From: Clostridiaceae bacterium
GTDB taxonomy: Bacteria; Bacillota; Clostridia; Oscillospirales; Acutalibacteraceae
Direction: 5' to 3'
DNA length: 33,263 nt
Assembly: GCA_016290515.1 (NCBI GenBank)
Contig: JAEEUJ010000004.1
Location: 1-33,263, forward strand
Shown: piece after piece, positions 11,757 to 30,791 of the stretch
How the letters are laid out: each line of letters starts with the position of its first letter
Position numbering within the stretch: position 1 is the first letter of the stretch
The notes under the pieces: generated by a model
Seen by the model: the letters and a program-made list of their open reading frames with translations, nothing else
Told to the model about the DNA's origin: nothing
The model's database searches: none
Position numbers and translations under genes: made by a program

Positions 11757-12902
11757 TCAGACCGACTCGGAATAGCTGCCAAGATACACAAAGCTCTGGG
11801 TGGAATACGGCAGCTCGTCTATCATCTGAAGGAATTTTTCCGAATAGACCGAGCCCTCGACGTCGAAATAGAACATAAACTCGAAGTCGCTGCCCTCAAG
11901 CGGTCTGCTCTCAAGCTTAAGAAGATTTATATTGAGCGCGGCAAACATACTTAAAAGCGTGTTAAGCGAGCCCGCTTTGTGCGGCAGAGTGAGCATCAGG
12001 CTCGTTCTGTCGGCACCGGGATAAATCTCAAGCTGTTTTGAAATGAGAATAAACCTCGTATAATTGTCCTCACGGTTCTGAACCGAGTTTTCAAGCACGT
12101 CAAGACCGTAAAGCTCAGCGCACTCAATGCTCGAGAGCGCGGCAACGCCCTCCTCGTTACTCTCGGCAACCGCCTTTGCAGCCATAGCCGTGTTCTCACA
12201 CGGGATTGCCTCCACGCCCTCAAGCGAGGAGAGGAAATCCGTTGACTGCGCTAAAGCCATAGCGTGCGAATAGATTTTCTTAACGTCTTCAAGCTTCGTT
12301 CCTTTTTTGGCAAGAAGCGAGTGATTTATCTTAAGACGAATGCACTTGACAATATAAAAATTGTATTTCTTCATAAGGTCGTAAACCTTGTTCACCGAAC
12401 CCGCCGTACTGTTTTCAACGGGCAGTACGCCGTAACGGCAGAAGCCGTTTGAAACTGCAGAAAACACGCTGTCAACGGAGTTGAAATACATAATATTCGG
12501 CAGCTCAAGCAGTTTTTCGCATGCGAGCGACGAATATGCGCCCTCAACGCCCTGACAGGCAACCGTTGCCTTTTCGGGAAGCTGCGCGTTCATACCCGCT
12601 TCTGTCGCCGCCCTGATTTTTTCAGCCAGATCGGATTTGCCGTCAATGCGATGATGCTGATAGGTTTTCGACAGTTCAAGTATCTGCTGATAAAGACGTA
12701 CGCCGTAGTTTTCGTATTCCTCGCCGCAGAGCTCTGCGATTTTGAGCAACAGCTCACGTTCCCTGCCCTTGTCAAGCACGGGCAGATAATTCGCACTTTT
12801 GTAATCCGCTATATCGGCAGATGTTTTCATACGCTCGATGAAAAGCTCAACGAGTTGTCTGTCGATTCCGTCTATTTTATTTCTGTATTCCTGTAAATCC
12901 AT
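11757..12902 (-). CDS. pheA: Bifunctional chorismate mutase / prephenate dehydratase
   Basis: N-terminal chorismate mutase (MDLQEYRNKIDGIDRQLVELFIERMKTSADIADYK), prephenate dehydratase (VACQGVEGAYSSLACEKL, GVLPVENSTAGSV, NREDNYTRFILI), C-terminal ACT-like region (SLMLTLPHKAGSLNTLLSMFAALNINLLKLESRPL). Confidence 0.95.
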   Translation of the reverse strand: MDLQEYRNKIDGIDRQLVELFIERMKTSADIADYKSANYLPVLDKGRERELLLKIAELCGEEYENYGVRLYQQILELSKTYQHHRIDGKSDLAEKIRAATEAGMNAQLPEKATVACQGVEGAYSSLACEKLLELPNIMYFNSVDSVFSAVSNGFCRYGVLPVENSTAGSVNKVYDLMKKYNFYIVKCIRLKINHSLLAKKGTKLEDVKKIYSHAMALAQSTDFLSSLEGVEAIPCENTAMAAKAVAESNEEGVAALSSIECAELYGLDVLENSVQNREDNYTRFILISKQLEIYPGADRTSLMLTLPHKAGSLNTLLSMFAALNINLLKLESRPLEGSDFEFMFYFDVEGSVYSEKFLQMIDELPYSTQSFVYLGSYSESV

Positions 12903-12911
12903 ATTATTACC

Positions 12912-13982
12912 TCACAATAATAAATCCAATACCGTGATAGCCGCAACCGCCTCAACAACGGGCACTGCGCGCGGAACTATACACGGGTCGTGTCTGCCGT
13001 GGATTGTTATTTCTTCTTCCTTCATCGTCTTTAAGTTCACGCTTGTCTGAGGTATGCCTATCGACGCGGTGGGCTTGACAGCCGCTCTGAATATTATCGG
13101 CATACCCGAGGTGATGCCGCCCAGAGCTCCGCCGTGATTGTCGGTTACGGTAACGACCTTGCCGTCCTTAACGGTGAAGGGATCGTTATTCTGACTGCCG
13201 TATTTTTCGGTTCCCGCAAAGCCAGAGCCGAACTCAACGCCCTTTACGGCAGGAATACCGAAAATGTTTTTTGCTATAAGATTTTCAATACCGTCAAACA
13301 TAGGCTCGCCGAGTCCTGCCGGCATACCCAGCACGGCACATTCTATAATACCGCCGACGGAATCGTTGTTTTCCATAGCGATTTCAATGACCTGCTTCAT
13401 TCGGTCGCCCTTGAAGCGTGAAACGGTCGGGAAAAACGGATCGTACTGAATCTCGTCGTCGTATAAGTTTTCAAGGTCAAACGGCTCGTCAAAGGTGTCC
13501 TTGATTGAATAGATATGACTCTTTATTGTAACGCCTTTACTCTTTAATATCTGTATGCAGACAGCCCCTGCGAAGCAAAGCGGAGCGGTAAGCCGACCCG
13601 AGAACTGACCGCCGCCCGCGATATCGTTGTTGCCGCCGTATTTGACATAGGCGGTGTAATCGCTGTGAGAGGGTCTTGGCACGAGTTTAAGCTCGTCGTA
13701 ATCCTCGCTTCTCGCGTTCTTATTATCAATCTTAATCGCAACGGGAGCGCCGCAGGTTTTGCCGTCGACAAGTCCCGAAATGATTTCGGGCTTATCGCTC
13801 TCCTTACGCAGTGTGGAAAACACATTCTGCCCCGGCGCTCGGCGCGCCATAAATGCGCTGACCCAATCGTTATCAATCTCAATTCCCGCGGGCAGTCCGT
13901 CGATTACCGCGCCAATGGACGGTGAATGCGACTGACCGTAAACGCTTACGGTGAGCTTGTTTCCCTTAATCGTCGATGACAT
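12912..13982 (-). CDS. aroC: Chorismate synthase
   Basis: VSVYGQSHSPSIGAVIDGLPAGIEID, RPSHSDYTAYVKYGGNNDIAGGGQFSGRLTAPLCFAGA, DNHGGALGGITSGMPI, GRHDPCIVPRAVPVVEA. Confidence 0.97.
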   Translation of the reverse strand: MSSTIKGNKLTVSVYGQSHSPSIGAVIDGLPAGIEIDNDWVSAFMARRAPGQNVFSTLRKESDKPEIISGLVDGKTCGAPVAIKIDNKNARSEDYDELKLVPRPSHSDYTAYVKYGGNNDIAGGGQFSGRLTAPLCFAGAVCIQILKSKGVTIKSHIYSIKDTFDEPFDLENLYDDEIQYDPFFPTVSRFKGDRMKQVIEIAMENNDSVGGIIECAVLGMPAGLGEPMFDGIENLIAKNIFGIPAVKGVEFGSGFAGTEKYGSQNNDPFTVKDGKVVTVTDNHGGALGGITSGMPIIFRAAVKPTASIGIPQTSVNLKTMKEEEITIHGRHDPCIVPRAVPVVEAVAAITVLDLLL

Positions 13983-15234
13983 CTGCTTTTCCTCCTAACG
14001 CTCTGTAATCCTCAAAAAAAGAGGGGTATGATTTGGCGACCGCTTCGGCATTTCTTATGACAATGTCGCCCGTGGCAACACCCGCCGCAACAGCCATGGA
14101 CATTATAATACGGTGGTCGTTGAACGAGAATACCTCGCCGCCGTACAGCGGCTCGCCCGACCAGATTATAAGTCCGTCGTCGGTTTCGGCGTTGACGCAG
14201 CCGATATTGTTAAGGCACTCGCTTATGGCGCCGAGCCGGTTGCTCTCTTTAAGTCTCAGACGCTCGGCTTTTGTAACTACCGTCAGTCCGGATTTTGCCG
14301 AAGCTCCCGCGACTGAAAGCACGGGCACGAGGTCGGGTATATTCTCAGCCGAAAACGATATTCCGTGAAGCTCGCCTCCCGTTACACGGACGCTGTCGCC
14401 GCTTTTTTCGACGCATGCGCCCATTTCGGAAAGTCTGTCAATTACAGCTTTGTCACCCTGAAGGGAGTCAAAGTTCAGTCCCGTGACGGTGACGTCGCCG
14501 CCCAGAGCGCCCGCGGTAAGGAAGAACGCCGCGTTCGACCAGTCTCCCTCTGCCTCAACCTCTTTGGGCGTAACGTATTTCTGATTTCCCTTTATTGAGA
14601 AAACATTGTCGTTCTCTTCGACATTGATACCGAATTCTTTAAGCGTGCCGAGCGTCATATCGATATACGGTCTTGACTCAACGGGCGGTATCAGTCTCAA
14701 ACTGCTGTCGCCGCCGAGAAGCGGCAGGGCAAAAAGCAGTCCCGTTATAAACTGTGAGGATACGTTGCCGTGAAGCTGGTATTTTCCGCTCTCAAGCTTA
14801 CCCTTTATTTCAACGGGAAACTGCCACGGCGGAGTGAATTCAATTTCGTGCGACTCCAGCTCACGCCTCAGCGGCAGTATCGGTCTTGACTGAAGCTGTT
14901 TTGAACAGACGAACTTCGTCTCGGTGCCGAGCGCCGCCGCAACGGGCATAAGAAATCTCAGCGTTGAGCCGCTGTCACGGCAGTTAAGCTCCGCCTTTTC
15001 GGCAGGCTTTTCGATAGGTCTTACGGTAATTTTTCCGTCGGATATTTCAATTTTTGCACCCAGCGCGTTAAGGCAGTCTGCCGTCGCCTCAATATCGTCG
15101 CAGATTCCGTTGCAGCGTATGACGGTTTCGCCGTCGCTCAACGCGGCAGCAATAAGCAGTCTGTGCACGTCGGATTTAGACGACACGGCGGCTACGGTTC
15201 CCTTAAGTTTTGCGGGTGAAAGCTTGATTTTCAT
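13966..15234 (-). CDS. aroA: 3-phosphoshikimate 1-carboxyvinyltransferase (EPSP synthase)
   Basis: SKSDVHRLLIAAALSDG, NCRDSGSTLRFLMPVAAALG, EGDWSNAAFFLTAGALGG, KAERLRLKESNRL, FNDHRIIMSMAVAAG. Confidence 0.95.
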   Translation of the reverse strand: MKIKLSPAKLKGTVAAVSSKSDVHRLLIAAALSDGETVIRCNGICDDIEATADCLNALGAKIEISDGKITVRPIEKPAEKAELNCRDSGSTLRFLMPVAAALGTETKFVCSKQLQSRPILPLRRELESHEIEFTPPWQFPVEIKGKLESGKYQLHGNVSSQFITGLLFALPLLGGDSSLRLIPPVESRPYIDMTLGTLKEFGINVEENDNVFSIKGNQKYVTPKEVEAEGDWSNAAFFLTAGALGGDVTVTGLNFDSLQGDKAVIDRLSEMGACVEKSGDSVRVTGGELHGISFSAENIPDLVPVLSVAGASAKSGLTVVTKAERLRLKESNRLGAISECLNNIGCVNAETDDGLIIWSGEPLYGGEVFSFNDHRIIMSMAVAAGVATGDIVIRNAEAVAKSYPSFFEDYRALGGKADVIDD

Positions 15235-16289
15235 TACTCGGTTCCCTTTTCGATTATATTAAGAAGCTCGTTAAAGTCGGTCTTGTAAAGCCTGCATTTG
15301 CCTATAGCTTCGGGCAGTACAAGCGTAATACCGTCCGCACCGCTCTTTTTGTCATGGCGGCAGACCTCAAGCAGTTCGGCTGCCGAAAAGTCGGTTGAAA
15401 CGGGCAGGCTGTATTTATTGTAAATGTCAATTATTTCGCTGCTCAGATCATATTTGCAAAGTCCGCATTTATAAGCGCCCCTTGCAATAATTACGGTACC
15501 TATCGCCACCGCCGAGCCGTGAGAAACGCCGTAATCCGACAGCTTCTCAATCGCGTGGCCTACGGTATGCCCTAAGTTAAGAAGGCCGCGGACTCCCCTG
15601 TCCTTTTCGTCCTCGTCAACTATATCGCGCTTGAAGCAGACGCATTTTTCAACTATGTATTCAAGATTGAGACGGGCTTCGTTTTCATTTAAGAAGCTGA
15701 AAAATTCCCTGTCAAAAAGTATGCCGTACTTAACCGTTTCCGCCATACCGTCAGCGAAAATGTTTCCGCTCAAAGTTGACAGTGTATCGGTGTCCGCGAT
15801 AACAAGCTTCGGCTGATAAAATGCGCCGACGAGGTTTTTTCCGCTCTGAAGATCAACTGCGGTTTTACCGCCTACGGACGAATCCACCATAGCCAGAAGC
15901 GTTGTCGGCACCTGAACGTACGCTATGCCGCGAAGATACGTTGCCGCCGCAAAGCCGGTAATATCGCCGACCACTCCGCCGCCCAGCGCAACCATACAGT
16001 CGTCGCGCGTCAGTTTCTTCGAAGCCGCGAATTCAAGTATATCAGTGTAGGTCTTTATGTTTTTCGAGCCCTCGCCGTTTTGAAAAACGAACTTAAAGCA
16101 CTCAAAACCCGCCTTAACAAGTGAAGCCTCAAGCGCTTCGCCGTAAAGCGAATTAACAATATCGTCGGTGACGATAAGGGCGGTCTTTGAACTGACCGTC
16201 TGCCTTATCAGAGTGCCCGACTGTTCAATTAAGCCTTGACCGATAAGCACCTCGTAGGGCGCGTCGGTTTTTACTTCAATTCTTTTCAT
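15234..16289 (-). CDS. aroB: 3-dehydroquinate synthase
   Basis: ALGGGVVGDITGFAAATYLRGIAYVQVPTTLLAMVDSSVGGKTAVDLQSGKNLVGAFYQP; LNLGHTVGHAIEKLSDYGVSHG. Confidence 0.96.
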   Translation of the reverse strand: MKRIEVKTDAPYEVLIGQGLIEQSGTLIRQTVSSKTALIVTDDIVNSLYGEALEASLVKAGFECFKFVFQNGEGSKNIKTYTDILEFAASKKLTRDDCMVALGGGVVGDITGFAAATYLRGIAYVQVPTTLLAMVDSSVGGKTAVDLQSGKNLVGAFYQPKLVIADTDTLSTLSGNIFADGMAETVKYGILFDREFFSFLNENEARLNLEYIVEKCVCFKRDIVDEDEKDRGVRGLLNLGHTVGHAIEKLSDYGVSHGSAVAIGTVIIARGAYKCGLCKYDLSSEIIDIYNKYSLPVSTDFSAAELLEVCRHDKKSGADGITLVLPEAIGKCRLYKTDFNELLNIIEKGTE

Positions 16290-16290
16290 A

Positions 16291-17136
16291 TCAATCCCTA
16301 TAGTCTCCGTCTATGCGTTCCTTGCATTCTCTGCCCTCTTTGAGCAGTTGTCTGAGAGCGTCGGAATCCCTTGCCTTTATAGCGTCGGAATACTGTTTAA
16401 GATTTTCAATAATATAATCAATTTCCTCGGTGAGATTGTCTGCATTTTCGAGGAAAAGCTCGGTCCACATCTCCTCGTTAAGCTTGGCAACTCTCGTTAA
16501 ATCCTTATAGCTACCTGCCGAAAAACCAGCGTGAACCTTAGCGTTCGGGCTCTTGACGTAGGCGTTTGAAACGACGTGCGCAAGCTGAGACGTGAATGCG
16601 ATAATTCTGTCGTGCTCCTCGGGAGTTGAGAACTGAATGTTAGTAAATCCGATGTCACAGAACAGCTTTTTGAGCGTTTCAAGGTCGTTGATGTCCGCTT
16701 CGCCGTCGGGAATAAGTATCATTGACGCGTTCTCAAACAGGTTGACAAGCGAGTAATCAAAGCCCGACAGATGGCGGCCCGCCATGGGATGCGCGCCGAT
16801 GAACTTAAAGCCGTTTTCCTTTGCAAGCTTCCACATATCCTCGCAGACATAGCCCTTTACGCCGCAGGTGTCAAGCACGAGAGCGCCCTTTTTGAACTTA
16901 TCCGCGTTTTCGGTGATATACTGCTTGGTCGCCTCGGGATAAATGGCGGTGATGACTATATCGCAGTCGCCTATTCTGTCCCGTGTCAGATCGTCATCAA
17001 CCGCGCCGAGCAGCTTTGAACGGAGCAGAACGCCCGCGTTTTTATCATATCCGAGCACGGTGCTGTCGGTATTGTATTTGATTGCCTTGGCAAATGAACC
17101 GCCGATAAGACCGAGACCTATAATTCCGATAATCAT
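16291..17136 (-). CDS. tyrA: Prephenate dehydrogenase
   Basis: IGIIGLGLIGGSFAKAIK Rossmann motif; FIGAHPMAGRHLSGFDYS; HDRIIAFTSQLAHVVSNAYV. Confidence 0.92.
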   Translation of the reverse strand: MIIGIIGLGLIGGSFAKAIKYNTDSTVLGYDKNAGVLLRSKLLGAVDDDLTRDRIGDCDIVITAIYPEATKQYITENADKFKKGALVLDTCGVKGYVCEDMWKLAKENGFKFIGAHPMAGRHLSGFDYSLVNLFENASMILIPDGEADINDLETLKKLFCDIGFTNIQFSTPEEHDRIIAFTSQLAHVVSNAYVKSPNAKVHAGFSAGSYKDLTRVAKLNEEMWTELFLENADNLTEEIDYIIENLKQYSDAIKARDSDALRQLLKEGRECKERIDGDYRD

Positions 17137-17148
17137 TGTTTTTCTCCG

Positions 17149-18153
17149 TTATGCTATAACTTTTCTGATTTCTTCCACGCCCTTGACAACCTCGGCGAAT
17201 TCCTCGGGGCGAAGCGCCTGAGGTCCGTCGCAAAGCGCCTTTGACGGGTCGTTATGTACTTCTATCATAAGTCCGTCCGCACCGCAGGCCGCCGCTGCAA
17301 AGCTCATCGGCTTGACCAGACGGGCGATACCCGCCGCGTGGCTCGGGTCGATAACTACGGGCAGATGCGTTTTTTCCTTAAGCATCGGCACAGCCGCTAA
17401 ATCAAGCGTGTTTCTGGTCGCCGTTTCAAAGGTGCGTATGCCCCTCTCGCAGAGTATTACGTTCGGGTTGCCCTCGCTCATAATGTACTCGGCGCTCATA
17501 AGGAGCTCCTGATAGGTCGCCGAAAGTCCGCGCTTGAGGAAAATCGGTTTGTCGAGTTTGCCGAGTTCCTTGAGCAGTTCAAAGTTCTGCATATTTCTCG
17601 CGCCGACCTGAATTATATCGACATCCTCAAACAAATCTATATGCGAGGCGTCCATAATCTCGGTAACTATCGGCATTCCCGTCTCTTTTTTAGCTTCAAG
17701 CAGAAGGCCCAGGCCCTCGTTTCTCATGCCCTGAAAGGCGTACGGCGAGGTTCTCGGTTTGAAAGCGCCGCCGCGCAGTATAGTCGCACCTGCCGCCTTG
17801 ACCGCCTTTGCAACGGTTATAATCTGCTCCTCGGACTCTATCGAGCAGGGGCCGGCAAAGAACTGAAAGTTTCCGCCGCCTATCTTTATTCCGTCTCCGA
17901 CTGTTATAACCGTGTCGTCGGGGTGGAATTTGCGGTTTGCCTGTTTATAGGGCTCTGAAATTCTCCTTATGCCCTCGACTATTTCAAGACCTTCTATAAG
18001 GTCGGTGTCAATTTTACTCGTGTCGCCGACAAGTCCCCAGATAGTCTGGAATTCACCGGTTGAAGCGTGAATCTCAACATTCTGCTGTTCAAGCCAGTTG
18101 CGCAGCACCTTTGTTTTCTGCTCGGGCGCCTGATTCTTCAAGATAATTATCAT
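17149..18153 (-). CDS. aroF: 3-deoxy-7-phosphoheptulonate (DAHP) synthase
   Basis: [86 protein letters not shown]-terminal extension as in type Ibeta enzymes. Confidence 0.95.
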
Positions 18154-18166
18154 AATCTCAACTCCT

Positions 18167-18199
18167 AAAAAAAGCCCCGCAGTGTTTTCACTGCGAGGC
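18167..18199 (-). terminator. Attenuator-type intrinsic terminator in the aroF leader
   Basis: On the minus strand: GCCTCGCAGTG-AAAA-CACTGCGGGGC-TTTTTTT; 11-bp stem (one T.G wobble), 4-nt loop, 7 T; sits between the leader ORF and aroF. Confidence 0.9.
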
Positions 18200-18243
18200 G
18201 TAACTTACAAAACCTTAAGCAAAACCTTTTTCAGCGAAACTCA

Positions 18244-18312
18244 CTAAACCCTATCACTAAAGCTGATAAAGTAAAAGTAGAAGTATTCAGCTGTAAAAAA
18301 CAAGCGAGTCAT
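18244..18312 (-). CDS. Phe/Tyr-rich leader peptide of the aromatic operon (MTRLFFTAEYFYFYFISFSDRV)
   Basis: Minus-strand ATG at 18312, TAG at 18246-18244; 22 aa with 6 Phe and 3 Tyr including YFYFYF; preceded by a modest RBS (AGCAGG) and a good promoter, followed by terminator 18199-18167 and aroF. Too short for the supplied ORF track. Confidence 0.85.
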   Translation of the reverse strand: MTRLFFTAEYFYFYFISFSDRV

Positions 18313-18342
18313 AGGTTTACCTGCTTAAAAATTGTTGTAAAT

Positions 18343-18371
18343 ATATTAGCATCGCAATATTAATTTGTCAA
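18343..18371 (-). promoter_or_regulatory. Sigma70-type promoter for the aro operon leader
   Basis: Minus strand TTGACA (18371-18366), 17-nt spacer, TAATAT (18348-18343), ~30 nt upstream of the leader-peptide ATG. Confidence 0.8.
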
Positions 18372-18394: not shown

Positions 18395-19150
18395 TTATTT
18401 TCTGTCCCTGAAATACATTCTCATTGATTTGAGATGATATTTCAGCAGCTTCAGACTCTTTGAGCTGCCGCCGTCCCAGTTGTGCGTTACGCTGAATTCG
18501 GGATTGTATATGATTTTGCCGTACTGTCTTATTCTGTCGGACAGATCCGAGTCCTCCATATACATAAAGTACTTCTCGTCAAAGCCGCCGATTTTATTGA
18601 AAAGCTCGGTACGCATCAGCATAAAACAGCCCGAACAGAATTCAATTTCGGCAGGCTCTGTAATATTTTCATTTGCGCGCGTGTACTCGTCGCGTATGCC
18701 CCTGAACGCCTTGATATAGCGTGAAAGCCTGCCGAGTATCATATAGCGTTTAGTCGGTTTTCTTTTGGGAAGATGCTGGACGGTGCCGTCGGGATTGAGT
18801 ATCTGCGGAGTGACAAGCGCCGTGTCGGGATTGGCATCAAGATAAGCGCAAAGTCCCGCAAGTACGTCGCCCTCAAAGGTGATGTCGGGATTGACTATCG
18901 CGTGATAAACGCTGTCGGTACCGAGCATTTTGTTGTGTCCCGCGCCGAAACCGCGGTTTTCGCCCGCGTTTATGATATTGACCTCCGGATATGCGGACTT
19001 AACGACCTCGACGGTTTTGTCCGTCGAAGCGTTGTCAATAAGCGTGAGCGTATATTCAATTTGTTTTGTGTTTTCGGTAACGCTTTTTATAACGTTGAGA
19101 ATCTCATTCTCGCTGTTATAGCTTACCACTGCAACGGAAAGCCGAGCCAT
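18395..19150 (-). CDS. GT2-family glycosyltransferase (rhamnosyltransferase-like)
   Basis: LSVAVVSYNSENEILNVIKSVTENT...TLIDNASTDKTVEVV, NRGFGAGHNKM, VNPDITF, CSGCFMLMRTELFNKIGGFDEKYFMYMEDSDLSDRIRQYG. Confidence 0.9.
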   Translation of the reverse strand: MARLSVAVVSYNSENEILNVIKSVTENTKQIEYTLTLIDNASTDKTVEVVKSAYPEVNIINAGENRGFGAGHNKMLGTDSVYHAIVNPDITFEGDVLAGLCAYLDANPDTALVTPQILNPDGTVQHLPKRKPTKRYMILGRLSRYIKAFRGIRDEYTRANENITEPAEIEFCSGCFMLMRTELFNKIGGFDEKYFMYMEDSDLSDRIRQYGKIIYNPEFSVTHNWDGGSSKSLKLLKYHLKSMRMYFRDRK

Positions 19151-19159
19151 ACGCCCACC

Positions 19160-19933
19160 TCACAATCCGAGTCTGTAAAATACGTTTATGTTAAGTTGCC
19201 GTTTAAGCAGATACAGCCTGCCCTGTAAAACTGTTTTTCCGTCACCTGACTGCTGACAGAAATAGCTGTAATCCTTTTTGAAAATACGGAAGCGGCGTTT
19301 TGCCGCATTTATGTTTTTGTGGTCGTTTGCCGAAAAGCTCTGGCAAAGCTCAAGACCTTCGGCAACCGAAATCTTCACATTTTTTGCCTTCATATCTCGC
19401 AAAAATGCGTGGTCGATAAAGTCAAGAAAATAGTTCTCGTCATATCGGTAATCTTCAAAGAGTTTAAGGTTAACCGCCATGCCGCTGTTTATGCCCGAAA
19501 TATTGGTTTCGTTTAACTGCGAAAGGCTGTTGATGCGCTTTGTCAACGCGCCGTCAATGATGCAAGGCGACATAATGCCGACCTTGTCGCGGATGACGGG
19601 CAGAATTATATCTGCGCCGCTCTTTTCAATCTCGCAGTCAAGCTTTTCAAAGTAATCGGAAGGTACCTCGGTATCGTCGTCGAAAAGGCAGACGTAACCG
19701 TTTCTGCCCTTCAGCGAATCAAGTGCGCGGTTATACGCCTTAGCAAGTCCGAGATTGCCGCCCATTGAGATATAGCCGACGCCCCTGTCAGCTATGTTGC
19801 GGTTGGAGTTTTCCTGAGTCGAGTTGTCGCAGACCGTAACGGACACACCGAGCTTTTCAAGGCTCCTGAAGGTAAGGGATTCTTCAATTTTGCGGTTGCA
19901 AATAACCATTACGGCAAAGAAAGTGTTGTTCAT
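19160..19933 (-). CDS. GT2-family glycosyltransferase
   Basis: VTVCDNSTQENSNRNIADRGVGYISMGGNLGLAKAYNRALDSL...VCLFDDDTEVPSDYFEKL: DDD motif and GGNLGLAKAYN. Confidence 0.85.
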   Translation of the reverse strand: MNNTFFAVMVICNRKIEESLTFRSLEKLGVSVTVCDNSTQENSNRNIADRGVGYISMGGNLGLAKAYNRALDSLKGRNGYVCLFDDDTEVPSDYFEKLDCEIEKSGADIILPVIRDKVGIMSPCIIDGALTKRINSLSQLNETNISGINSGMAVNLKLFEDYRYDENYFLDFIDHAFLRDMKAKNVKISVAEGLELCQSFSANDHKNINAAKRRFRIFKKDYSYFCQQSGDGKTVLQGRLYLLKRQLNINVFYRLGL

Positions 19934-19939
19934 ATTCTC

Positions 19940-20632
19940 TTACCCTTTGAAATAAGCCTTTATTATGCCCAGTCTCCACTTAATCATCTGCATAACGCCC
20001 TCGTGCTGCATTTTCGACGAATTGTCGCCGTGTCTGCGCCAGAGTATCAGCGGCTCGTTTATGAGCTTAACCCTGCCATGCTTTTCACACATAAGACCTA
20101 TCCACTGGTCGTGCATGGGCAGGTTTTCGGGAAACGGCAAAATGTAATCAAGAGCCTCTCTTCTGAGCGCCATACAGCAACCCATATAGGAGTTTTTGAT
20201 TATGTTTTTGAGTATTCCCGTTTTTGTGCCCCTGACCTCAAAGAATGATTCGTTAAGCGTGTTAAGCTCACCGTCGGTCACTCTTGCGTCGTGCATAACG
20301 AGAAGCAAATCTCCGTCGGCTTTGAACTCATCTTTAACTCTTTGCACCTTGTTTTCAAGCCATATATCGTCCTGATCGCAAAGAAAAATCAAATCGTTTC
20401 TGCAATTCTTAATTGCGTTTTCAAAGTTCTTTATAAGTCCCTTTCCCTCGCCGTCAACTATACGGATACGGCTGTCGCCGAGAGCTTCGATAAGCTGACG
20501 GGTGCCGTCGGTTGACGGGTCGAGGGACACAACAATTTCGTCGTCCCCGGACAACTGCGGCAATACCGAGCGCAACTGCCCGGCTATATACTTTTCACCG
20601 TTATAAGCCGCGAGGGCAACCGAAACCGTCAT
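19940..20632 (-). CDS. GT2-family glycosyltransferase
   Basis: VSVALAAYNGEKYIAGQLRSVLPQLSGDDEIVVSLDPSTDGT..., DLIFLCDQDDIWLENKVQ, GCCMALRREALDYILPFPENLPMHDQWIGLM. Confidence 0.9.
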   Translation of the reverse strand: MTVSVALAAYNGEKYIAGQLRSVLPQLSGDDEIVVSLDPSTDGTRQLIEALGDSRIRIVDGEGKGLIKNFENAIKNCRNDLIFLCDQDDIWLENKVQRVKDEFKADGDLLLVMHDARVTDGELNTLNESFFEVRGTKTGILKNIIKNSYMGCCMALRREALDYILPFPENLPMHDQWIGLMCEKHGRVKLINEPLILWRRHGDNSSKMQHEGVMQMIKWRLGIIKAYFKG

Positions 20633-20634
20633 AA

Positions 20635-21198
20635 TCAGAATGTATTCTTCTCCTTGAATTCCTTAAAGGACTGATGAACCTTATCCTTTTCGGAAAGCAG
20701 TATTTCCATATCGTCGGGAATTGGCCACTCGATACCGATGTCGGGGTCGTTCCACATAAGTCCCGCCTCGTGAGTGGGATCGTAATAGCGTGTGCACTTG
20801 TAAACGAATTCAGCCTCGCCTGAAAGCACTACAAAGCCGTGAGCAAAGCCCTCGGGAATATAGAACTGCTTCTTGTTCTCAGCCGAAAGAACAACGCCGT
20901 ACCACTTGCCGAAGGTCTCGCTGTTACGTCTTAAATCAACAGCAACGTCAAAGACCTCACCCGAGACAACTCTGACGAGCTTGCCCTGTGAGTTCTCGGT
21001 CTGGAAGTGAAGTCCGCGAAGCACACCGCGCTTTGACTTGGACTGATTGTCCTGAACGAAAACGGCGTCAACGCCGCCTGCGCAGAATTCCTCATACTGA
21101 TAGGTTTCCATAAAGTAGCCTCTGTTATCGCCGAAAACCGTAGGCTCGATAACATATACGTCCTTGATAGGAGTTTTGATAAAATTAAATTTGCCCAT
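20635..21198 (-). CDS. rfbC: dTDP-4-dehydrorhamnose 3,5-epimerase
   Basis: GVLRGLHFQTENSQGKLVRVVSGEVFDVAVDLRRNSETFGKWYGVVLSAENKKQFYIPEGFAHGFVVLS. Confidence 0.95.
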   Translation of the reverse strand: MGKFNFIKTPIKDVYVIEPTVFGDNRGYFMETYQYEEFCAGGVDAVFVQDNQSKSKRGVLRGLHFQTENSQGKLVRVVSGEVFDVAVDLRRNSETFGKWYGVVLSAENKKQFYIPEGFAHGFVVLSGEAEFVYKCTRYYDPTHEAGLMWNDPDIGIEWPIPDDMEILLSEKDKVHQSFKEFKEKNTF

Positions 21199-21265
21199 AA
21201 TTAAACCTCTTTACAGTCAACAACTCAAACCGCCCGAAGACGGTTTGAGTATGAATTTGAGTTTA

Positions 21266-22324
21266 TTATTTATTTTCGTACATCTTCTTGTAGTAATCCT
21301 GATATGCACCGCTGGTTACATTCTTAACCCAGTCCATATTGTCAAGATACCACTTGAGCGTCTTCTTGATACCAACCTCGAAGGTGGTCTCGGGATACCA
21401 GCCCAGAGCTTCCTTAATCTTGGTCGGGTCGATGCCGTAACGTCTGTCGTGGCCCTTACGGTCGGTGACGTACTTGATCATGTGCTCGCCAACCTCGGGG
21501 TCAACGTTTTCTTTGATGTACTGAATAATCGTCTTTACGATGAAGATGTTCGGTCTCTCGTTGTGGCCGCCTACGTTATAGACCTCGCCGTCAACGCCGT
21601 TGCGTACTACCATATCGATAGCCTTGCAGTGGTCCTCAACATAGAGCCAGTCACGAACCTGCATGCCGTCACCGTAAACGGGAAGCTCCTTATGAGCAAG
21701 GGTATTGTTCATAATAAGAGGGATAAGCTTCTCGGGGAACTGATACGGACCGTAGTTGTTCGAGCAGCGTGTGATGTTGATCGGGAACTTGTAGGTGTCG
21801 TGGAAAGCCTTTACGAAGAAGTCAGCAGAAGCCTTACTCGACGAATAGGGGCTGTGAGGATCGAGCGGAGTGGTCTCCATAAAGAAGCCCTCTGCGCCGA
21901 GTGAGCCGTAAACCTCGTCGGTTGAAACCTGAAGATACTTGACGCCCGCCTTGTACTCGTCGTCGCCCGTCTGCCAGGCTTCCTTGGCGCACTGAAGCAT
22001 ATTTACAGTACCGAGAACGTTGGTCTGAACGAAAATCTCGGGGTTGGTGATGCTTCTGTCAACGTGGCTTTCAGCCGCGAAGTTGACAACGTAGTCAACG
22101 TCGTTTTCCTTAAAGATCTTCGAGATGGCTTCCTTGTCGCAAATGTCAGCCTGAACGAAGCTGTAGCGGGGGTTGTTCTCAACGCTCTTGAGGTTCTCAA
22201 GGTTGCCCGCATAGGTAAGCTTATCAACGTTGATGATTTTAACGTCATCGTACTTGTTAAGCATATAGATTACGAAATTTGAGCCGATAAAACCGGCGCC
22301 GCCTGTTACAAGATAAGTTTTCAT
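21266..22324 (-). CDS. rfbB: dTDP-glucose 4,6-dehydratase
   Basis: YLVTGGAGFIGSNFVIYMLNKY, NFAAESHVDRSI, VSTDEVYGSLG, PYSSSKASADFFVKAFHDTY. Start set at MKTYLV (overlaps the rfbD TGA). Confidence 0.95.
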   Translation of the reverse strand: MKTYLVTGGAGFIGSNFVIYMLNKYDDVKIINVDKLTYAGNLENLKSVENNPRYSFVQADICDKEAISKIFKENDVDYVVNFAAESHVDRSITNPEIFVQTNVLGTVNMLQCAKEAWQTGDDEYKAGVKYLQVSTDEVYGSLGAEGFFMETTPLDPHSPYSSSKASADFFVKAFHDTYKFPINITRCSNNYGPYQFPEKLIPLIMNNTLAHKELPVYGDGMQVRDWLYVEDHCKAIDMVVRNGVDGEVYNVGGHNERPNIFIVKTIIQYIKENVDPEVGEHMIKYVTDRKGHDRRYGIDPTKIKEALGWYPETTFEVGIKKTLKWYLDNMDWVKNVTSGAYQDYYKKMYENK

Positions 22325-23229
22325 TGGTCCTTCTCCATTTCGTCTAATTTTATGATATATTCCTTCAGCGCTGTCTGCCAGTCTCTCATTTCGTTGCCGA
22401 CAGTGCATTTCAGCATAAGATTGTTAAGCGAGGAGTAAAGCGGTCTGGGCGCCGCTGCGGGATACTTTGCCGAGTATTCCTCGGTGGTGCATTTTGCAAC
22501 CGTACCCTTGCAGCCTGACAGCTCCATAATCAGAGCCGCAAAGTCTGCCCAGCTGCACTCGCCCTCACCCGTACAGTGATAGACACCGTATTCTTCCGTT
22601 AACGCAAGCTTGAGAATGTGATAGGCAAGGTCGTTTGCGTTGGTGGGATTTCCCCTCTGGTCGTCAACAACGGTTGTGACGTCGTTCATATTACCGAGTC
22701 TTCTCATGGTCTTTACAAAGTTCTTGCCGATAAGCCCGTAAAGCCACGCAGTACGCAGGATAAAATATCTCGTCGAGAATTCCTCAACGTATTTTTCGCC
22801 CAGAAGCTTCGACTTGCCGTAAACGGTGTTGGGCTCGGTTTCGTCCCATTCGCAACGCGGCGTGTTACCGTCGCCCTTGAAAACATAGTCGGTCGAAACG
22901 TGAACGAGCTTTGCTCCGTTTCTCTCGGCAGCCATCGCGAGATTGCGAGGGCCTATCGCGTTGACCTTCATAGTCGCGTCGAAATTCGTTTCGCAGCCGT
23001 CAACGTTGGTCATAGCCGCGCAGTTTATGATAACGTCGGGCTTCTTCTCACCGACAAACGCCATAACCGCTTCGGTGTCGGTGATGTCGAGGTCCTCGAC
23101 GTCAACCGCAATAATCTCACAGCCTGCATATTTGTCGGAAATCCTGCCGATTCCCGCTTCGCCGGTTCTTAGCATGGTCTGAAGCTCGTTGCCGAGCTGA
23201 CCGTGAGAGCCTGTAATCAGTATTTTCAT
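22321..23229 (-). CDS. rfbD: dTDP-4-dehydrorhamnose reductase
   Basis: KILITGSHGQLGNELQTML, DVIINCAAMTNVDGCETN, HVSTDYVFKGDG, VYGKSKLLGEKYVEE. Confidence 0.95.
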   Translation of the reverse strand: MKILITGSHGQLGNELQTMLRTGEAGIGRISDKYAGCEIIAVDVEDLDITDTEAVMAFVGEKKPDVIINCAAMTNVDGCETNFDATMKVNAIGPRNLAMAAERNGAKLVHVSTDYVFKGDGNTPRCEWDETEPNTVYGKSKLLGEKYVEEFSTRYFILRTAWLYGLIGKNFVKTMRRLGNMNDVTTVVDDQRGNPTNANDLAYHILKLALTEEYGVYHCTGEGECSWADFAALIMELSGCKGTVAKCTTEEYSAKYPAAAPRPLYSSLNNLMLKCTVGNEMRDWQTALKEYIIKLDEMEKDQ

Positions 23230-23242
23230 ATTATACCTCTCG

Positions 23243-24118
23243 TCAATCTACAGCCTTACCCGCTACCTTGTAGAGATACTGACCGTATTCGGTAGTGTGG
23301 AGCTTATCAGCCTGAGCAAGAAGCTGGTCGCGGTTGATAAAGCCGTTTGCGTATGCAATTTCCTCAAGGCAGGCAACGTAGAGTCCCTGTCTGGTCTGAA
23401 CCGCCTCAATGAAATTGGCGGCGTCGAGCATCGCTCTGTGAGTACCCGTGTCGAGCCACGCCATACCGCGTCCGAAAAGCTCAACCTTAAGTGTGCCTCT
23501 GCGAAGGTACTCGTTGTTGATGGACGTGATTTCTATTTCGCCTCTTGCGGAGGGCTTTACGTTCTTGGCTATTTCAATAACGTCGTTATCGTAGAAGTAA
23601 AGACCGGGAACAGCGTAGTTTGACTTCGGATGCTCGGGCTTCTCCTCAATTGAGAGAACGTTCCAGTCCTTGTCGTATTCAACAACGCCGAACGCGGTGG
23701 GATTGCTTACGTGATAGCCGAAAATCGTCGCGCCCTTTTCCCTTGCGCTTGCCTTGGCAAGACGCTCGGAAAAACCGTAGCCGTAGAAAATGTTGTCGCC
23801 GAGAACAAGACAAACACTGTCATCGCCGATAAACTCCTCGCCGATAATGAACGCGTCGGCAAGTCCTCTGGGCTTGTCCTGTACGGCGTACTGAATATTC
23901 ATACCTAACTGTGAGCCGTCACCGAAAAGCTCCTTGTAATCGGAGATGTCTCTCGGTGTCGAGATAATCAGAACGTCTCTGATTTTGGCAAGCATAAGCG
24001 TTGACATCGGATAATAAATCATCGGCTTATCATAGACAGTAAGAATCTGCTTTGATACCGCCAATGTTGACGGATAAAGGCGTGTGCCTGCTCCGCCTGC
24101 GAGTATAATACCCTTCAT
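23243..24118 (-). CDS. rfbA: Glucose-1-phosphate thymidylyltransferase
   Basis: [44 protein letters not shown]; start at ATG 24118 behind GGAGGG, not the upstream in-frame TTG. Confidence 0.95.
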
Positions 24119-24160
24119 AGTGTTTCCCTCCAAACACGTTTAATTTTTATGTGAATTTTA

Positions 24161-25534
24161 TTAATTCCCTTCGTCAGCAGGTTGTGTCTGCTCGGGCTGT
24201 GTCTGAGCCGCCGTGGTCTCAGCCTGAGTCTGAGCCTCGGGTACGCGCTCGGTAACCTGAGCCTGCGTAGTGGTCTCGGCCTGAGTCTCAGCCTCGGTAA
24301 CCGCCGCGGTTGTCGTTTCGGGTGCCGTCGTGTTCTCCGAATTGCCGGACGAACCGTCACCCTTTATTACTATCGTACCGTCGCCGTTACGGCTGTTGTC
24401 GGAAGTGTTACCGTTATTCTTGTTTGCAGCTGTGGTTGTCGTCTTTGTTTTGGATGAGCCGGAAGACGAGGCCGAATAATCCGCCGACGGAAGCTCACCG
24501 TAGATAAACATATGAATTCTGTTTGTGGCTTCCTCAAGGTCGTATCTCCATACCCACGCGCCGTCGTAAATGCCGCCCACGGCATTCTCGGGCTCGCCGG
24601 GCACGGTAATCGCCTCTAAGTTGATTTCCTCGTTAATCATCGGAACGAAGCTCATGACCTCCGAGAAGGTAAGCGAGGTTTCGCACAGCGACATAATAGC
24701 CTTGACTACCTCCGGGTACTTAGCCGGGCTGACCTTTCTCGCCTGAGCGAGAAGCGCATTGATAACCATCTTCTGACGGTTTGCGCGCGCCTCGTCGGAA
24801 TCCTGCTTACGCAGACGGCAGAATATAGTCGCCTGATCGCCGTCAAGGTGAACGGGTCCGTAGCTGTTCACGAGCGCCGCACCCTTCTGTGTGCCGCCGA
24901 GAGCCTCGGAGTTAATCTGCTCCATCTCGGACTTGGTAATCTCAATATCAATACCGCCGAGTATATCGATAGCCTCGGCCATTTTGTAGAAGTTGATTGT
25001 CGCGTAATCCGTAATATTCATTTTGAAATTACGGTTAATGGTGTTGATTGCCAGCTCTGCGCCGCCGAAAGCGTAGGCGTGGGTTATCTTCTGATTCTTA
25101 TGGCCTTCGATTTCGACGTAGCTGTCACGCAGTATCGAAGTCAGCTTGACAGTCTTGTTCTTGCGGTCAACGCTGACTATCATAATCGTATCGCTTCTGC
25201 CGTCAAAGGCGTCCTTGTCCCTCGTGTCAACGCCGAAGACGGCAACGTTGAAAATACCGGAATCGTGCGTTTCGCTGAGCGCAAGGTTGTCCTCATTGAC
25301 GTTCTTGCGGAAGCCGCTGTTGTAAACCGCCCAGGTAGTGATAATCGCAGCAAGTAACAGAAGCACAAGCACGGCAACGATAATAATTACCGCCTTCTTC
25401 CACTTTTTCATATTCTTCCATTTGCCTCTGATTCCGCCCTTGGGAGGATTGGTATTCTTATACACCTTGCCCTTCTTACCGCTTAAAGCGTCGGTGATTT
25501 CTATATCTTCAAAGTCTCTCTTTTTGCCTTCCAT
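24161..25534 (-). CDS. LytR-CpsA-Psr (LCP) family cell-wall polymer transferase/attenuator protein
   Basis: Single N-terminal TM, FNVAVFGVDTRDKDAFDGRSDTIMIVSVDRKNKTVKLTSILRDSYVEIEGH, AYAFGGAELAINTINRNFKMNITDYATINF, RLRKQDSDEARANRQKMVI; low-complexity Thr/Gln/Glu/Ala C-terminal tail. Confidence 0.93.
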   Translation of the reverse strand: MEGKKRDFEDIEITDALSGKKGKVYKNTNPPKGGIRGKWKNMKKWKKAVIIIVAVLVLLLLAAIITTWAVYNSGFRKNVNEDNLALSETHDSGIFNVAVFGVDTRDKDAFDGRSDTIMIVSVDRKNKTVKLTSILRDSYVEIEGHKNQKITHAYAFGGAELAINTINRNFKMNITDYATINFYKMAEAIDILGGIDIEITKSEMEQINSEALGGTQKGAALVNSYGPVHLDGDQATIFCRLRKQDSDEARANRQKMVINALLAQARKVSPAKYPEVVKAIMSLCETSLTFSEVMSFVPMINEEINLEAITVPGEPENAVGGIYDGAWVWRYDLEEATNRIHMFIYGELPSADYSASSSGSSKTKTTTTAANKNNGNTSDNSRNGDGTIVIKGDGSSGNSENTTAPETTTAAVTEAETQAETTTQAQVTERVPEAQTQAETTAAQTQPEQTQPADEGN

Positions 25535-30544: not shown

Positions 30545-30745
30545 ATCTCCGACCGGCGCTCGCAGTCATAACGGAGATTTGTCCGCGGCAGGGTATTTCG
30601 ACTCGGCGCACTTTTTCACCTTCTCAAAGCATTCGCTTCAATGGCTTGTCCCCGAATTTGTGGCTTCGGGCAAGAAAAAGCATTTTTGCGCCTCACGGCG
30701 GCGGGCCCGTACAGGAGTTTCACCTGTTTCCCCTTACTCACGCAA
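30545..30745 (-). ncRNA. Cobalamin riboswitch-like leader (Rfam RF00174 type)
   Basis: Minus strand: AGGGGAAACAGGTGAAACTCCTGTACGGGCCCGCCGCCGTGAGGCG...GAAGCCAC...GAGTCGAAATACCCTGCCGCGG, i.e. the GGGAA..GGTGAAA.TCC..CGGNCCCGCC.C.GTGA core and a divergent B12-box; followed by a CTCCG/CGGAG hairpin and the DUF4430 gene. Confidence 0.88.
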
Positions 30746-30748
30746 AGT

Positions 30749-30777
30749 ATATTATCACATTTTACCGCAATTATCAA
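30749..30777 (-). promoter_or_regulatory. Promoter for the riboswitch/DUF4430/ECF transcript
   Basis: Minus strand TTGATA (30777-30772), 17-nt spacer, TAATAT (30754-30749). Confidence 0.65.
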
Positions 30778-30791
30778 CAGAAACCGTCAAT

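Follow-up and report, generated by a model that had tools for sequence, protein, structure and literature searches.

The enterobacterial pheL/pheA and trpL attenuators consist of a leader peptide with control codons and of mutually exclusive 1:2, 2:3 and 3:4 stems. The Clostridia leader described here resembles them in its control codons and exclusive stems, with the codons enclosed by the 1:2 hairpin, which is also the classical arrangement, but it carries Phe and Tyr codons jointly, precedes a whole aroF operon, is found in Clostridia and has the closing stem of its 1:2 hairpin upstream of the control codons. The mechanism itself is classical, and the Clostridia leader family matches no Rfam family. 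In Firmicutes, amino-acid leader peptides have been described for hisS paralogues of Bacillus, with some Firmicutes leaders standing in place of T-boxes (PMC2965389), for his operons (PMC9413887), for ilv-leu of S. aureus (PMC5794164), and for the leu/phe leader RF01743 of Lactococcus (PMC2864571); all of these concern other amino acids or genes, or are limited to Lactococcus. The closest published relative, compared by its published description, is uORFC-13-1, which comprises 24 representatives upstream of aroF, reported only from Acholeplasma and unidentified environmental sequences (PMC8632094). It shares with the Clostridia leader the aroF target, a promoter, a uORF containing one or more Phe codons, a downstream terminator and a proposed attenuation mechanism, but the text of the paper names Phe codons and describes neither a Tyr run nor a 1:2/2:3/3:4 scheme (PMC8632094). 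The T-box (RF00230) likewise senses the charging state of tRNA, through the uncharged form, and governs a terminator, but it binds the tRNA directly and has no leader ORF. No description of a Phe/Tyr leader ahead of a clostridial aroF was found in the open-licence literature.

The leader lies on the minus strand of the window, i.e. the whole 33,263-nt stretch of DNA analysed, and all the coordinates of its parts and of the operon refer to that strand. The sequence scan places a sigma-70-type promoter at 18343-18371, with TTGACA (18371-18366) and TAATAT (18348-18343) separated by a 17-nt spacer and with TG preceding the -10 box; both boxes are discernible in the alignment of most genus relatives. 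The likely Shine-Dalgarno core AGG is at 18320-18322, and similar purine-rich sites (AGGA/AGGT-like) are found ahead of the leader ATG in most relatives. The leader ORF, MTRLFFTAEYFYFYFISFSDRV (18244-18312, the TAG stop included), consists of 22 codons, nine of which are aromatic (6 Phe and 3 Tyr), and its control codons Tyr-Phe-Tyr-Phe-Tyr-Phe are located at 18268-18285. The intrinsic terminator (18167-18199), supported by the scan, by the comparison with relatives and by RNAalifold, is composed of an 11-bp stem (18199-18174, -20.1 kcal/mol) and a T7 tract (18173-18167).

The first regulated gene is aroF, encoding DAHP synthase (17149-18153; TIGR01361, NF006421), with its ATG at 18153, ~90 nt downstream of the leader stop codon. 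It is followed by tyrA (prephenate dehydrogenase, 16291-17136, assigned by best model matches under the curated cut-offs), aroB (3-dehydroquinate synthase, 15234-16289, TIGR01357), aroA (EPSP synthase, 13966-15234, TIGR01356), aroC (chorismate synthase, 12912-13982, TIGR00033) and pheA (chorismate mutase/prephenate dehydratase, 11757-12902, best matches of both models slightly under the cut-off). The promoter, the 22-codon ORF, the 11-bp terminator with T7 and the aroF operon were all found where the sequence-only reading of this DNA had placed them. In a 4-kb scan, promoter and terminator matches alone were not above shuffles (6 vs 5.0 and 6 vs 5.4, respectively), and the case therefore rests on the comparison with relatives. 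Upstream of the promoter, at 18395-25534 of the same strand, there is a polysaccharide cluster with RmlC-, RmlD- and RmlB-like rhamnose-pathway genes, glycosyltransferases and a LytR-CpsA-Psr protein.

The aroF loci were drawn from 59 relatives (counting the window's own genome), together with 80 loci from a species-level genome collection. A leader was defined as an ORF starting with ATG, 10-50 codons long, in which five or more of 8 successive residues are Phe/Tyr, at most 320 nt upstream of aroF. Such an ORF is present at 79% of 119 loci, compared with 2.5% for the reverse complement, 1.8% for dinucleotide shuffles and 2% for the region 400-720 nt upstream; with the stricter run of at least six within 8, the value is 67%, against 0%, 0.3% and 1% (reverse complement, shuffles and farther upstream, respectively). 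When the 320 nt upstream were dinucleotide-shuffled 20,000 times, 48 shuffles reached the score of the window leader, 6. Leader and terminator are both present at 97 loci, and every one of these 97 leaders contains both Phe and Tyr. Tyr10 and Tyr12 are the same in all 25 aligned leaders, with variation at the third positions of their codons (TAC/TAT), and codons 11 and 13 show F/Y swaps, being almost always Phe or Tyr.

Loss of the leader ORF in close relatives had been set beforehand as a check on the attenuator proposal; the ORF is retained at 25 of the 26 nearest loci examined (L001-L026), with L023 as the exception. In this genome of the same genus, aroF has no leader and is preceded by the apparent coding tail and terminator of another gene, which suggests a moved gene that lost its attenuator. 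About one-fifth of the sampled aroF loci, L023 among them, are devoid of an obvious leader. Beyond the order, with Trp counted too, 24 of 69 DAHP synthase loci of the phylum score at least 5, and many have no F/Y leader; outside the class, too, some DAHP synthase genes are preceded by aromatic-run leaders, and many of the more distant genes are without. Six of the distant DAHP synthase leaders (L221, L222, L226, L203, L204 and L216) contain Trp besides Phe and Tyr and would perhaps respond to each of these three amino acids. Among the named carriers are Sporobacter termitidis DSM 10068, Angelakisella massiliensis, Yanshouia hominis and Emergencia sp.; since these are cultured, the attenuator idea is directly testable.

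The leader RNA is organised in four segments and one inner hairpin. Segment 1 (S1, TTTTTTACAGCTGAA, 18286-18300), supported by the swap test, RNAalifold and pair counts, is 5' of the aromatic codons and pairs with segment 2 (S2, TTTCGCTGAAAAAG, 18226-18239; swap tests, pair counts). The alternatives for S2 are S1, giving the anti-antiterminator, or S3, giving the antiterminator through 18239-18232. Segment 3 (S3, 18186-18199; swap test, pair counts) comprises the 5' arm of the terminator and its loop, and its part CAGTGAAA (18193-18186) is the partner of S2. The inner hairpin H (18249-18271) is formed by CTTTATCA (18271-18264) with TGATAGGG (18256-18249) and overlaps the 3' end of the aromatic run. 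The control codons thus sit within the 1:2 hairpin, whose closing stem has its S1 arm upstream of them, and the 1:2 fold of the window (S1:S2 plus CTTTATCA:TGATAGGG) has a calculated energy of -19.8 kcal/mol.

In the swap test, the pairing of arms from the same genome was compared with that of arms exchanged between genomes (5,000 permutations, 87 non-duplicate loci; S1 was taken as the stretch from the leader ATG up to the first aromatic codon). The mean energy of the antiterminator S2:S3 is -14.2 kcal/mol for own arms and -11.0 for permuted ones (z -11.8, 0/5000), and that of S1:S2 is -10.8 and -8.3 kcal/mol, respectively (z -10.2, 0/5000). The reversed-arm composition controls gave z values of -2.1 (2:3) and -1.2 (1:2), and on 47 dereplicated loci the values are -9.5 and -6.7. 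RNAalifold, applied to the 25-sequence alignment, independently recovers both S1:S2 and 3:4, and 9 of the 16 pairs show double changes. Set against 500 shuffles, the pair counts of 1:2 and of 2:3 both come out above every one of them in three measures out of five (paired cells, cells with double changes, covariation score), and in the 25 sequences 98% of the S2:S3 cells are paired. For the inner hairpin H the swap z is -8.6 (0/5000), with 85.8% of cells paired and double changes in 5 of 9 pairs. Since coding sequence extends over parts of segments 1 and 2, some of their conservation could be at the protein level.

These results bear differently on the three pairings that had been proposed by eye. 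The 8-bp 2:3 antiterminator is present and conserved (swap z -11.8), and the identity of 3:4 with the terminator, exclusive with 2:3, is borne out by pair counts, swap tests and RNAalifold. The idea of a 1:2 pairing stands (S1:S2, z -10.2), but its proposed arms, 18271-18262 with 18235-18226, do not: the letters are there, but they are not conserved and do not form the predicted fold, 63.8% of cells being paired with no measure beating the shuffles. The element CTTTATCA within them does pair, but with TGATAGGG and not with S2. The region after the aromatic run gave a swap z of -0.2 against S2 and thus shows no S2 matching, and the value for an S2 partner in the 40 nt preceding the leader ORF is 0.2. 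In isolation 3:4 (-20.1 kcal/mol) is more stable than 2:3 (-16.2 kcal/mol for the S2-S3 stretch), and antitermination has to depend, for this reason, on the order of synthesis.

By analogy and from the covariation, the leader is very probably a ribosome-mediated transcription attenuator that would sense charged tRNA-Phe and tRNA-Tyr. The sequences show its parts, their conservation, the three alternative pairings (by covariation) and the match between codons and genes; ribosome stalling, the efficiency of termination and the response to starvation are inferred. In the leader RNA, S1, the Tyr/Phe codons and S2 would form the 1:2 hairpin, with S1:S2 as the closing stem and H inside. With ample Phe and Tyr, the ribosome would pass the codons and reach the stop at or near S2, blocking S2 from S3, or, alternatively, S1:S2 would re-form behind it. 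With S2 unavailable to S3, the 3:4 terminator would form and transcription would end ahead of aroF. When Phe or Tyr is scarce, the ribosome is predicted to stall within YFYFYF, covering S1 and breaking H, so that the freed S2 would pair with S3, no terminator would form, and aroF-tyrA-aroB-aroA-aroC-pheA would be transcribed. The geometry of the leaders speaks for this reading. S2 starts 14-31 nt past the aromatic run (5th-95th percentile), and, judged from the size of the ribosome footprint, a ribosome stalled on the run would leave S2 free and sit on S1 or between S1 and S2. Relative to the end of the stop codon, S2 lies between 55 nt upstream and 14 nt downstream; as it is never farther downstream than this, a terminating ribosome would always reach or cross S2.

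Every feature of the class of ribosome-mediated amino-acid attenuators (trpL/pheL type) that is accessible in sequence is present in the leader. It has a short ORF, predicted to be translated, in which codons for the regulated amino acids abound, and an intrinsic terminator between this ORF and the first gene. The antiterminator 2:3 is exclusive with the terminator 3:4, the 1:2 pairing sequesters S2 (with its disruption by the ribosome predicted), and the codons fit the end products of the controlled genes. The central proposal of the sequence-only reading, a Phe/Tyr leader peptide with exclusive 1:2, 2:3 and 3:4 pairings, is accordingly upheld by the conserved ORF, the compensatory changes, the position of the terminator and codons that track the operon.

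The relation between codons and genes was followed with a covariance model, derived from 25 leaders, that searched 147 genomes of the order with no gene information; the model includes the U-rich codons, hence it is partly sequence-driven. The 45 places found comprise 37 before aroF (two by coordinates), two before tyrA, one before a TrpB-like gene and one before ilvB. Four matches of the model (L185/L274, L263, L268 and L272) have no recognisable leader or target and were taken as false. Where the aroF-pheA operon has no intervening tyrA (L270, L357), the leaders contain Phe and no Tyr (MNARFFNGFFDFSFFGKSDLCCREK and MNARFFNGFFGFSFFERSDLCCRES). Stand-alone tyrA genes (L261, L262, L335) are preceded by nearly Tyr-only leaders, YYYLGFVYYY, YYYLSLVYYYYYY and YYYGFAYYY. 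The TrpB-like gene of L264 has a KYWYFYF leader (Trp+Tyr+Phe, ~52-114), and ilvB of L189 has an Ile/Leu/Val leader, LFVSLIVFLIGIIVII (~1498-1596), with the same four-segment layout. The latter is alike in logic to the ilvB uORF of Corynebacterium, which is reported to have Ile/Leu/Val codons and a terminator/antiterminator (PMC10272879, via PMC11109978); the phylum and the sequence are different. All of these codon-swapped leaders retain the terminator and the complementary segments, with weaker 1:2 and 2:3 in L335 and L264, and weaker 1:2 with an indistinct S1 in the Phe-only L270 and L357. Most of the 40 regions upstream of stand-alone tyrA or pheA have no convincing leader, and leaders are therefore the exception there.

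Across these loci the codon content, as predicted from the translated leaders, follows the controlled genes, and the natural swaps offer a ready test of which amino acids the leader senses. The interest of the system lies in its breadth, its dual amino-acid content and these swaps. More tentatively, and with the balance leaning somewhat against it, one ancestral scaffold (alternating GCAGC/GCTGC-like S1-S4) may have been repeatedly recoded in Clostridia for Phe+Tyr, Phe, Tyr, Trp+Tyr+Phe and Ile/Leu/Val, moving between or staying with aroF, tyrA, the TrpB-like gene and ilvB and being swapped with T-boxes, as a modular clade-wide family outside Rfam.

The structured and conserved S1:S2 and S2:S3 would also be expected of a riboswitch, and an ordinary 5'UTR terminator run by an RNA-binding protein or a small-molecule riboswitch would make the short ORF incidental. 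This is highly improbable, as the aromatic run is preserved at the level of amino acids (invariant Tyr10 and Tyr12 with TAC/TAT variation, F/Y swaps), the identity of the codons shifts with the regulated gene in the same layout, and the weak Rfam matches are far under the cut-offs, with no family at gathering score. Given the ~90 nt between the leader stop and the aroF ATG, control could instead be mainly translational, with the leader ORF coupled to aroF or a stalled ribosome exposing the aroF ribosome-binding site and the terminator being secondary; with a GC-rich hairpin and T-tract between leader and aroF at 97 loci, and with S3 forming the 5' arm of the terminator and not the aroF ribosome-binding site, we give this very little credence. 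An arrest peptide or other small protein, in which the nascent chain and not the codon supply sets the arrest, is the least probable reading, because, although an AEYFYFYF-like core is discernible in many relatives, F and Y are freely varied in order and number (YYYY, YFYFSF, FYFSFYFF) and the core turns into YYY, FF, YWYFYF or I/L/V depending on the target gene, neither of which fits a fixed arrest motif, and the ORF ends anywhere between 55 nt past the first position of S2 and 14 nt short of it.

Attenuation by a leader peptide would share the aromatic pathway of Clostridia with the T-box. The Rfam search gave no T-box (RF00230) match in the window, the region upstream of aroF included, in agreement with the earlier remark that no T-box signature is visible there. 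Elsewhere in the same genome there are nine T-box matches, preceding asnS-, valS-, thrS-, TrpB-like and other genes (translations read by eye). The accompanying statement that the aromatic genes of Firmicutes are more often linked to T-box or TRAP control holds in general as regards the T-box, but this lineage uses both devices: in L040 and L042 a T-box is found directly upstream of aroF in place of the leader peptide, and the TrpB-like gene follows a T-box match in the genome of the window (L157) and a leader in L264. For aroF and the TrpB-like gene, then, one device is used in some relatives and the other device in others. An exchange of leader peptide and T-box has been documented for hisS (PMC2965389). 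Attenuation of the pheL/trpL type would accordingly be a widespread control of this pathway in Clostridia, side by side with T-boxes in the same lineages.

For the aroF leader no Rfam family was found at gathering score, and this applies also to the Phe_leader, Trp_leader, Thr_leader and leu-phe_leader models (Thr_leader, 13 bits with a cut-off of 55). A match to Spot 42 at a permissive threshold (27.6 bits vs a cut-off of 80, E 0.0017) is attributed to chance, arising from poly-U and the terminator. A glmS ribozyme (RF00234) is located at 655-809 of L031, close to the aroF region of this relative, and a Cobalamin riboswitch (RF00174, 57.4 bits) is found in the window at 30570-30784 of the minus strand.
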